DNA of 39,627 nt, taken from the IMG/VR virus record IMGVR_UViG_3300025646_000117, positions 1-39,627 of that record; one strand, given 5' to 3'. The position numbers and the translations under genes were made by a program. Positions 36,891 through 39,605 of this stretch are shown piece after piece. This DNA is from a virus. The notes below the pieces were generated by a model. The model was not told the origin of the DNA. It saw only the letters and a list, made by a program, of their open reading frames with translations, and made no database searches. Each line of letters opens with the position of its first letter. Position 1 is the first letter of the stretch.

Positions 36891-37421
36891 TTAATTCCCC
36901 ATTACTTTTCTTAGACCGTATTGATTAATGTATTGCTCCATTGCATCATTAATCATTTTGTTTGTAAACTCATAAGAGTCAGGTACTTTTAATCCTTTCC
37001 TATGTGAAGCAGCATGTACTTCCTTTAGTTTATTTAATAGTGAATCATCTATTATCTGCATTGGTTTCTCATTAGATGATATGACTTGTATATTATTCTT
37101 TTTTTCTATCCATTCAAGATTCTCAATTCTATTATCACTGTAATCATTATTGATATGTCTTATTCTTGAAGAGAAGTCATTACAAGGTAAGTATGCCATA
37201 GCAACTAACCTATGAATGTAAAAGTTCTCTCTTTTGTTATTTGTATTTCTTAGTCCTACTATTAGGTAACTGCCTTTCTTTTTTGCCCATCCAGGTTTGA
37301 GTATTGCAGGTGTTCTTCTCTTATAGCTCCATACATTACCGTTTACATCTATTTCGTAATGTATGAAGTTTTCCAACCCTTTTATGTCGCAGATTTTCTT
37401 TCTTCTGACTGGTATAGACAT
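36891..37421 (-). CDS. HNH homing endonuclease
   Basis: 176 aa from ATG at 37421 (reverse); an in-frame ATG 32 codons upstream is less likely. YEIDVNGNVWSYKRRTPAIL (the NUMOD4-like lead strand), then ENFYIHRLVAMAYLPC, RIRHINNDYSDNRIENLEWI: the HNH core with H-RLVA, HINND and N-ENLEW. The C-terminal 60 residues include SLLNKLKEVHAASHRKGLKV, a likely DNA-binding helix. Probably a mobile, free-standing endonuclease next to structural genes. Confidence 0.8.
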   Translation of the reverse strand: MSIPVRRKKICDIKGLENFIHYEIDVNGNVWSYKRRTPAILKPGWAKKKGSYLIVGLRNTNNKRENFYIHRLVAMAYLPCNDFSSRIRHINNDYSDNRIENLEWIEKKNNIQVISSNEKPMQIIDDSLLNKLKEVHAASHRKGLKVPDSYEFTNKMINDAMEQYINQYGLRKVMGN

Positions 37422-37539
37422 TTGTTTATGTACTACTATTTTATCTAGTAGTGTTAAGTTTTCCACAATTTGGGAAAACCTGTGGAAAACTATTATAGTG
37501 TTTTGTTTTCCTGACAATATTTGTTATTATTCTTATTAT

Positions 37540-37644
37540 TGTATGAGTATTATGTGTTAATGTATGAGTATTATTTGTTATTGTATGAGTATTATGTGTT
37601 AATGTATGAGTATTATGTGTTAATGTATGAGTATTATAAAGAAT
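37540..37644. repeat. 21-bp tandem repeat array (about 5 units)
   Basis: Units begin at 37540, 37561, 37582, 37603 and 37624, each starting TGTATGAGTATTA; units 1, 3 and 4 are identical, unit 2 varies at three positions, the fifth is partial. The last GAGTATT pairs with AATACTC just downstream as a hairpin. AT-rich iteron-like DNA in a 458-nt region without genes (37518-37975), upstream of the reverse-strand HNH gene. Confidence 0.8.
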
Positions 37645-37748
37645 ACTCAATTAATACTCATTTCTTATGCAAGTTAAGCGAGCATATCATGAGACCCGCA
37701 GTTTGTCAACCCCCCACCCACGCACAAAAATCCTGAGACCCACACAAA

Positions 37749-37876
37749 ATCTAGTCGAGACTCACACATATCTTATAAGAATCTAGTCGAGACTCACACA
37801 TATCTTATAAGAATCTAGTCTAGACTCACACATATCTTATAAGAATCTAGTCTAGACTCATATATATACATCATAA
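37749..37876. repeat. 32-bp tandem repeat array with two palindromes per unit (4 units)
   Basis: ATCTAG recurs at 37749, 37781, 37813 and 37845, exactly 32 bp apart; units differ only at a G/T (AGTCGAGACT or AGTCTAGACT). Each complete unit also holds TCTTATAAGA, itself a palindrome. The fourth unit decays after ACTCA. No spacers, so not CRISPR; looks like an operator or replication array upstream of the promoter at 37902. Confidence 0.8.
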
Positions 37877-37901
37877 TCTAGTCGAGATAGACACATCTAG
37901 A

Positions 37902-37944
37902 AGTGGCACAAGCCCTTGACATCTAGACTAGATGGCACTATACT
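37902..37944 (+). promoter_or_regulatory. Box + promoter (TTGACA-17-TATACT)
   Basis: AGTGGCACA (37902-37910), TTGACA (37916-37921), 17 nt, TATACT (37939-37944). Spacer contains TCTAGACTAGA, so the CTAG motif lies between -35 and -10. Directly downstream of the 32-bp array. No hairpin. Confidence 0.65.
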
Positions 37945-37975
37945 GTACAAGTACACAAATCTAGACGAGACCCCT

Positions 37976-38125
37976 ATGTACGACGACTACGATCTCGACT
38001 ATACATTTGAGCGAGATTATGCGCAGAATCTAGATGAGTATGCACTAGATGCTTATGATCTAGATGACGAATATGCACGAGATAGTGATGATTATGAATC
38101 ACTTGCATACAAGCATTATGCATGA
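37976..38125 (+). CDS. Asp/Tyr-rich acidic mini-protein
   Basis: 49 aa from ATG 37976; the longer open frame starts in the promoter. Extremely acidic and aromatic: YDDYDLDYTFERDYAQNLDE, then YALDAYDLDDEYARDSDDYE. Leu is nearly always CTA followed by GAT, producing CTAG in the DNA. Such charge could mimic DNA (as in Ocr-like anti-restriction proteins) or bind a basic host protein; purely inference. No family recognised. Confidence 0.55.
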   Translation: MYDDYDLDYTFERDYAQNLDEYALDAYDLDDEYARDSDDYESLAYKHYA

Positions 38126-38153
38126 TATAATCTAGACACATACAGGAGGCATT

Positions 38154-38306
38154 ATGATCGCACAGAAGCAACGTGTACGGGTTACTCTAGACCTAGAAGT
38201 ATATGATGACCTAGACCTGCATAGACAGGACTGGCACGATATTCTAGACCTAGAGGGGGATGAGGATGTTGATGTTAGCATCGAATATCTAGATATAGAT
38301 TACTGA
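38154..38306 (+). CDS. Acidic mini-protein with CTA-GAY codon pairs
   Basis: 50 aa with AGGAGG 5 nt upstream. IAQKQRVRVTLDLEVYDDLD, then WHDILDLEGDEDVDVSIEYL. Basic first residues then acidic; VRVTLDLEVYDDLD could be a beta strand plus helix. Six of its Leu-Asp/Glu pairs are written CTA-GAY/R, continuing the CTAG enrichment. Function unknown. Confidence 0.6.
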   Translation: MIAQKQRVRVTLDLEVYDDLDLHRQDWHDILDLEGDEDVDVSIEYLDIDY

Positions 38307-38354
38307 TGTGACACTTTCCAAATTGGCACAAAACTCTTATATATAATATACATT

Positions 38355-38442
38355 ACTTAAGTTTATTATAATAAAGAGCAGCTCTTGAATTCTCCTAATA
38401 GGACTCAGAATCAATCTGACATACATTATAATAAACTTAAGT
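38355..38442. repeat. Perfect 18-bp inverted repeat (stem-loop, 52-nt loop)
   Basis: ACTTAAGTTTATTATAAT (38355-38372) has its exact reverse complement at 38425-38442. The loop holds AGAGC-A-GCTCT. It lies in a stretch without genes (38307-38690). Could be a structured RNA, a terminator, or a recombination/cruciform site. Confidence 0.7.
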
Positions 38443-38556
38443 AGACATAAACATTATATAAGCGAACAGGGTTTAACGCTAGTTTCCCAATGTGCTGAAT
38501 GTAGTGAACAATTGAAGAAGGACTATAAAGAATAAAAAACAACAGGACGATTCCTG

Positions 38557-38581: not shown

Positions 38582-38622
38582 TACTTAGGAGTCATATTTT
38601 TGTATCTTGTGCCAGTTGGAGA

Positions 38623-38666
38623 ACTGTCCACTACCCCTTGCATTCGGCATCAGAATCTGCGATAGT
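38623..38666 (+). promoter_or_regulatory. Diverged box + promoter (TTGCAT-17-GATAGT)
   Basis: ACTGTCCAC (38623-38631), TTGCAT (38638-38643), 17 nt, GATAGT (38661-38666); box to -10 is 29 nt as in the other modules. Weaker hexamers than most. Confidence 0.5.
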
Positions 38667-39343: not shown

Positions 39344-39561
39344 TGGCACTCTCTACTAAGACAACTCAAAAACTAGCAATTGCTCTCACTCCTGAAGTGA
39401 TTGAGTATATCTACGCTGATGAGCGTTGGTTTGACTTTATGATTGAAATGACTGGTGAGGCAGTACAGGAGAAACTGGGCACAAATGATATGGAATTAAT
39501 TGCCGAACTGGGACAATGTATCATTGATAATATTCTGCTCAAGAGTGTGACAGTTGCCTAA
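39343..39561 (+). CDS. Small hypothetical protein (cyanophage-conserved type)
   Basis: 72 aa from ATG 39343. QKLAIALTPEVIEYIYADER, then WFDFMIEMTGEAVQEKLGTN and ELIAELGQCIIDNILLKSVT. I recall close relatives (LTPEVIDYIYxDERWxDFM) in cyanomyoviruses, without assigned function. All-helical. Confidence 0.65.
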   Translation: MALSTKTTQKLAIALTPEVIEYIYADERWFDFMIEMTGEAVQEKLGTNDMELIAELGQCIIDNILLKSVTVA

Positions 39562-39605
39562 GTGGCACACAGGGGGTTGTGAGGGACCCTAAGACCTGCT
39601 ACATT
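39561..39605 (+). promoter_or_regulatory. Box + promoter (TTGTGA-17-TACATT)
   Basis: AGTGGCACA (39561-39569), TTGTGA (39577-39582), 17 nt, TACATT (39600-39605). Box to -10 is 30 nt. It drives a gene beyond the window. Confidence 0.6.

Follow-up and report, generated by a model that had tools for sequence, protein, structure and literature searches.

The locus analysed here raises the question why one tetramer, CTAG, is crowded into a few hundred base pairs of a viral DNA. In the preliminary description, 21 CTAG tetramers had been counted from 37751 to 38292, and a direct count gave the same number, with starts from 37751 to 38289. The window, i.e. the whole stretch of 39,627 bases that was analysed, contains 52 CTAG. 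The remaining 39 kb outside the locus hold 31 of them, most 500-bp bins of the window have none, and no other bin of the window approaches the peak at 37751-38292. A second-order Markov model predicts 63 outside the locus, so that the rest of the window shows a mild avoidance of CTAG, and the Poisson probability of finding 21 in 542 bp is about 3e-21 at the Markov rate and 3e-28 at the outside rate. Other four-base palindromes are also avoided outside the locus, the ratios of observed to expected numbers being 0.07 for GATC, 0.13 for CATG, 0.16 for AGCT, 0.25 for ACGT and 0.49 for CTAG; GATC occurs 13 times in the whole window, three times within ORF1 or ORF2. The claim that leucine is unusually often written CTA in the two small genes was borne out as well. 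All CTA-coded leucines of ORF1 (three) and ORF2 (six) precede GA, while CTA was used for only 2 of 37 leucines before GA in the long ORFs of the window.

The analyses described below indicate that the CTAG cluster is one phage's version of an array of palindromic sites straddling an early promoter. The array is apparently an undescribed element present in many cyanobacterial viruses from the ocean and from fresh water; no description of it was found in the open literature searched.

A near-palindrome of 11 bp is the repeated unit

The unit repeated in the array of the window is the 11-bp near-palindrome TCTAG-W-CKAGA, rather than CTAG. Seven of these palindromes were detected in the window by pattern search (Table 1), and across relatives the general form is TCTMG-W-CKAGA. 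A scan of IMG/VR with this pattern gave at least 120 matching stretches, of which places holding three or more sites were kept as arrays, revealing at least 87 distinct arrays with at least 451 sites in cyanophage DNA. Among the matches listed, the consensus is (A)AATCTCGWCGAGATT(T), in which A or C is chosen freely in each half. At position 4 of the half-site, C accounts for 80% and A for 20% of these matches, sites with A in both halves number 26 with about 18 expected, and the choice is nearly independent between the halves; mixed, that is mismatched, half-sites occur in 29% of the sites. This independence fits a putative dimer, the monomers of which would each tolerate A or C. Relatives mostly show the C form, TCTCGWCGAGA, with TCTCGACGAGA or mixed forms at the equivalent place. 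The window represents an extreme A variant with A in 10 of 14 half-sites, and one related locus (L132) has A in all 12 of 12. The high CTAG count in the window is therefore due to the use of the A variant of the half-site by this phage. CTAG as a universal word was rejected, because most relatives use CTCGWCGAG in the array and in ORF1. The exact array sequence of the window had no match elsewhere in viral_contigs. Of the meanings suggested earlier for the cluster, a binding-site array has thus been strengthened by the conservation of the palindrome, by its placement between -35 and -10 and by the spacing of the sites, but not with CTAG as the general word, and a packaging signal found no support.

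Neighbouring sites, among the matches listed, are preferentially separated by 21-24, 31-33, 40-43 or 62-67 bp. For promoter-linked arrays, the circular statistic at 10.5 bp reached R 0.31, a value inflated by relatedness, and the period of the spacing peaks is broad, about 9 to 10.5. This spacing hints at binding along a single face of the helix. An RNA hairpin or a riboswitch was also considered and rejected. The element has no match in Rfam, its predicted RNA folding is ordinary (z of -0.8 to -1.5), and 29% of the sites are mismatched. As the half-sites mutate independently and RNA folding is unremarkable, the element appears to be read as DNA rather than as RNA.

Three arrays were detected in S-SRM01. 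In the S-T4 record MH412654, an identical array is present at 2.7 kb and at 174.3 kb, near both ends, suggesting long end redundancy or an assembly overlap.

Promoters and gene order at the locus

Array-bearing loci follow a common order: AT-rich block, leftward sigma70-like promoter, array, rightward promoter with a putative operator in the spacer, a further one before the ATG, ORF1, and ORF2. The features of the window are listed in Table 1.

Table 1. Features of the array locus in the window
Feature	Position	Strand	Details	Method
Two inverted DnaA-box-like 9-mers	37459..37489	 	TTTTCCACA, 37459-37467; TGTGGAAAA, 37481-37489	 
AT-rich 21-bp tandem repeat	37536..37637	 	4.9 copies, left of the leftward promoter	TRF
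Leftward sigma70-type promoter	37681..37709	-	-35 TTGACA (complement 37704-37709), -10 TATGCT (complement 37681-37686)	 
32-bp putative operator array	37748..37887	 	4.4 copies	TRF and pattern search
Array palindromes	37750-37760, 37782-37792, 37814-37824, 37846-37856, 37877-37887	 	 	Pattern search
Rightward early-type promoter	37916..37944	+	-35 TTGACA 37916-37921, -10 TATACT 37939-37944	 
Putative operator in the promoter spacer	37922..37932	 	TCTAGACTAGA, fills the -35/-10 spacer directly after -35	 
Putative operator before ORF1	37960..37970	 	TCTAGACGAGA, between promoter and ORF1 start	Pattern search
ORF1	37976..38125	+	49 aa, very acidic, half-site words	 
ORF2	38154..38306	+	50 aa, phrog_12516 (function not assigned), 6 CTAG	 

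CTAG had been noted in the spacer of the rightward promoter, and this is correct, but the spacer contains a full palindrome, more than loose CTAG tetramers. A full operator-like site lies inside the -35/-10 spacer in 46 of 54 loci, compared to 15.2 expected when the sites are rotated. When a stricter promoter score was applied, only 23 distinct promoter-plus-operator sequences remained, and the loci are therefore not all independent. P-SSM2 shows a perfect consensus promoter, TTGACA-ATCTCGACTAGATCTGG-TATAAT, and laboratory phages with this arrangement also include S-SRM01 and S-SKS1. S-T4 carries the array and ORF1-ORF2, but no operator within the spacer was scored for its promoter. The site in front of ORF1 is found at the equivalent position in S-SRM01, S-SKS1, P-SSM2 and two further loci (L013, L022). 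Since P-SSM2 has ORF1 without an adjoining ORF2, ORF1 is the constant partner of the array.

The leftward promoter, which has a 17-bp spacer and in the window faces a gene for an HNH endonuclease, recurs in most loci with an array, at a distance of about 400 bp from ORF2, and in most array-less loci, where the distance is about 180 bp. From these distances, array and ORF1 constitute a module placed between leftward promoter and ORF2. In one locus (L024), a plain promoter without a single palindrome precedes ORF1 and ORF2. The AT-rich block recurs at the equivalent place in relatives, at -450 to -700 in most loci, and the pair of DnaA-box-like sequences in the window is possibly origin-related. 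The HNH endonuclease gene (phrog_59, Pfam HNH_3) is located beside this control region, at 36891-37517 on the minus strand; several arrays of relatives are bordered by GIY-YIG and HNH genes. On the other side, right after ORF2, a perfect 19-bp inverted repeat, TACTTAAGTTTATTATAAT, with a 52-nt loop is found at 38354-38443.

Among the matches listed, no ORF2 was detected near 33 arrays. This group includes some ORF1 loci (e.g. L064 and L131), and the others sit between other small genes, most without an obvious promoter; a site within a promoter spacer was seen in 4 of the 33. Because so many of them show no obvious promoter, promoter repression cannot explain everything. These arrays and the extra ones of S-SRM01 may be stoperator-like roadblocks, regulatory relics, or sites for structural proteins. 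Extra arrays in gaps between small genes were seen, for example, at 1608-1697 in L052, at 6323-6424 in L007, and in L104 and L110; some are arranged around a hairpin, and they are mostly promoterless.

Half-site words are maintained in ORF1 and ORF2 by synonymous choice

The two genes next to the array specify small products. ORF1 proteins have a mean net charge of -14 in the family and a conserved C-terminus, ..DxxYARDxxDYxxLAYKHYA. For the ORF2 product, a confident structure model (pLDDT 88.5) shows almost no regular secondary structure and is uninformative. According to the preliminary description, selection acts on the DNA word itself, and a test of synonymous sites had been proposed. In this test, codons were randomised with each phage's own usage. 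In 50 ORF1 genes, 194 half-site words were counted, compared to 54.8 from synonymous expectation, and in ORF2 of array-bearing loci 237 compared to 73.2. Unbiased k-mer counting gave CTCGAC as the top word in ORF1 (95 versus 5.8), and CTAG as the most enriched tetramer in ORF2, 133 versus 20.2 expected or 6.6 times, across 53 array-bearing loci. Leucine before GA is written CTA in 105 of 211 cases in ORF2, although CTA makes up 7.6% of leucine codons. Relatedness among the phages inflates these counts, but the array-less control runs the opposite way: ORF2 of 24 array-less loci contains 12 half-site words with 27.5 expected, and nine CTAG in total. The claim of selection on the word was thereby upheld and extended to an entire group of phages, and the signal in the genes is the best evidence for it. 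It had also been said that other strains encoding the same peptides without CTAG would speak against it. Loci that lack the array, such as L024, do encode peptides of the same family without using CTAG, which is therefore not required by the peptides; the word accompanies the array.

The positions of CTAG in ORF2 differ among the phages, forming 37 distinct position sets, so that what is conserved seems to be the density of the word and not its exact places. In a meta-profile of 53 loci, CTAG amounts to about 0.04 per 50 bp outside, rises to 0.25-1.49 between -400 and the ORF2 end, and then returns to background. The borders of the signal are sharp and correspond to the array start and the ORF2 stop codon. 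In ORF2, overlapping ATCTAGA/CTAG words are favoured, without full spaced palindromes. This word pattern is not predicted by a strict dimer operator and counts against the operator model.

Possible function of the array and relation to known systems

The features described above are best accommodated, with somewhat better than even probability in our view, by a multi-operator control element of T4-like cyanophages, at which a dimer would cover the early promoter and might extend across the genes. The postulated DNA-binding dimer, which the phage itself probably encodes, would recognise TCTMG half-sites arranged as TCTMG-W-CKAGA. As one site sits between the -35 and -10 of the rightward early promoter and another immediately in front of ORF1, the bound protein would block RNA polymerase by steric repression. 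The upstream sites, at about 21-24, 32, 42 and 63-65 bp, would permit cooperative binding on one DNA face, and the half-site and CTAG words maintained in ORF1 and ORF2 by synonymous choice could act as weaker sites extending the complex to the ORF2 end. A more far-reaching version, tentative and in our estimation somewhat unlikely, assumes that a phage protein nucleates on the operators and polymerises or spreads over about 550 bp via the weak half-sites in the genes. The resulting bounded nucleoprotein domain would silence or mark the early locus, and the acidic ORF1 product could perhaps be a DNA-mimic antagonist.

To find the binder, the array-bearing genomes S-SKS1, S-T4, S-SRM01, G002 and P-SSM2 were compared to the array-less Bellamy, S-CAM7, Sf-CH8 and ACG-2014f. 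Among proteins encoded in all genomes of the first group and in none of the second, no clear DNA-binding one was found. Phrog_661, an acidic protein of 56-58 aa, was detected in every array-bearing genome that was checked, but several array-less genomes (S-CAM7, ACG-2014f, Sf-CH8) encode it as well. Its gene is located 1.5 to 8 kb downstream of the array in most array-bearing genomes examined, and in places distant from it. The AlphaFold model (pLDDT 85) best matches EcMazE, AbrB-N, SpoVT and VapB in Foldseek, with probabilities of 0.93-0.99 and weak E-values of 0.09-0.6, and the protein scores below the curated cut-offs of Pfam MazE (13.7 versus 24.7 bits) and TIGR01439 (18.1 versus 28.3). 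The predicted fold thus resembles the swapped-hairpin proteins AbrB, MazE and SpoVT at weak E-values, from which phrog_661 differs by its acidity and by its occurrence in array-less cyanophages. It is the best candidate, albeit a weak and non-exclusive one, and its role as the binder is doubtful.

On the host side, ATCTMGWCKAGAT was found singly scattered in 34 of 201 genomes of the family of a cyanobacterial MAG, not above the reversed control, and no arrays were detected in these 201 genomes. In genome_contigs, 52 triple-site matches were obtained, few of them cyanobacterial: three contigs in two cyanobacterial MAGs, possibly phage DNA, one symbiont chromosome, and the rest in other taxa. 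As the site is not enriched in the host family and cyanobacterial contig matches are few, a phage-encoded binder is likelier.

Alternatively, the element could be a cyanophage replication origin or part of it, with the leftward RNA as a possible primer. The AT-rich block, the tandem repeats and iteron-like palindromes, and divergent promoters kept even without an array would suit an origin, and a published prediction gives Syn9 a single theta origin (PMC2984593). DnaA-box-like 9-mers upstream of the arrays number 24 in 45 related loci, about 37-fold above the 0.65 expected by chance, but they are confined to 10 of the 45. The GC-skew sign change is absent at the locus in five genomes, the promoters and the AT block persist in array-less phages, which have no iterons, three arrays occur in S-SRM01, and T4-like phages carry their own replication machinery. 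An origin is considered unlikely.

Neutral repeat expansion, in which slippage and gene conversion homogenised one word per phage without binding function, is quite improbable. The 32-bp tandem array is repeat-like, ORF1 varies in length via LDE-like units, and coding and non-coding variants correlate weakly within a phage (Spearman 0.38, P 0.006). However, the palindrome is kept while the spacers change, its place in the promoter spacer is fixed in the large majority of loci, the ORF2 words arose from scattered synonymous changes and not from copied blocks, and the functional borders of the signal are sharp.

Still less probable is a putative methylation target timing promoter use, replication or packaging, like the GATC sites of oriC or P1 pac. 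The crowding of one palindromic tetramer within about 550 bp, and its retention through synonymous codons, would suit this reading, and the strong avoidance of four-base palindromes elsewhere in the window suggests restriction pressure. CTAG is not generally avoided in relatives, though (observed/expected 0.74-1.07), and since most of them use CTCGWCGAG in array and ORF1, no single methylatable tetramer is shared.

The least probable reading, a host transcription factor borrowed by the phage, could appeal to the host sigma70-like promoters and to the sites for the host regulator NtcA reported in cyanophages (PMC3037559), but is opposed by the singly scattered sites in the host family and by triple-site matches lying mostly outside cyanobacteria.

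The preferred reading, multi-operator control, suggests that a repressor-like circuit acting on an early promoter has been overlooked in a large number of T4-like cyanophages, which are without several of T4's early transcription regulators (PMC2984593). Among them are the laboratory phages P-SSM2, S-SRM01, S-SKS1 and S-T4, and the circuit is thus directly testable. It would also be an exceptionally clear example of protein-coding genes that hold regulatory DNA words through synonymous codons, with array-less relatives as a natural control.

Other known systems invite comparison. The promoter early stem-loops (PeSLs) of T4-type phages, mentioned in PMC4503421, are host-like early promoters that lie among small early genes beside hairpins whose arms are GTGACA..AAGTGGCACA; the promoter in the window begins with AGTGGCACAAGCCCTTGACA. 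PeSL-like units, in which such a hairpin recurs with a promoter-like sequence between small genes, are found in the window at 38307-38332, 38610-38640 and 39560-39600. To our knowledge, PeSLs have neither a palindrome array nor a signal in coding sequences. The GATC clusters of oriC/SeqA and P1 pac are similar in that one palindromic tetramer occurs far above chance over a few hundred bp of coding and non-coding DNA, but the cyanophage word is variable (CTAG or CTCG..CGAG) and has no known methylase link.

Lambda OL/OR, P22 and the stoperators of mycobacteriophages L1 and L5 comprise repeated near-palindromic sites for dimers, one of them in a -35/-10 region, divergent promoters, and additional sites elsewhere. 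Repeated dyad sites, one in a core promoter, divergent promoters and extra sites are also found with the cyanophage arrays, some of which lie in short intergenic gaps as in L5. In contrast to these phages, T4-like cyanophages are regarded as lytic and no repressor gene was found in them, their half-sites run through two genes by synonymous choice, and the half-site variant, A or C, differs between phages. While membership in this class would need a repressor, the array would, by analogy, work like the multi-operator control of these phages.
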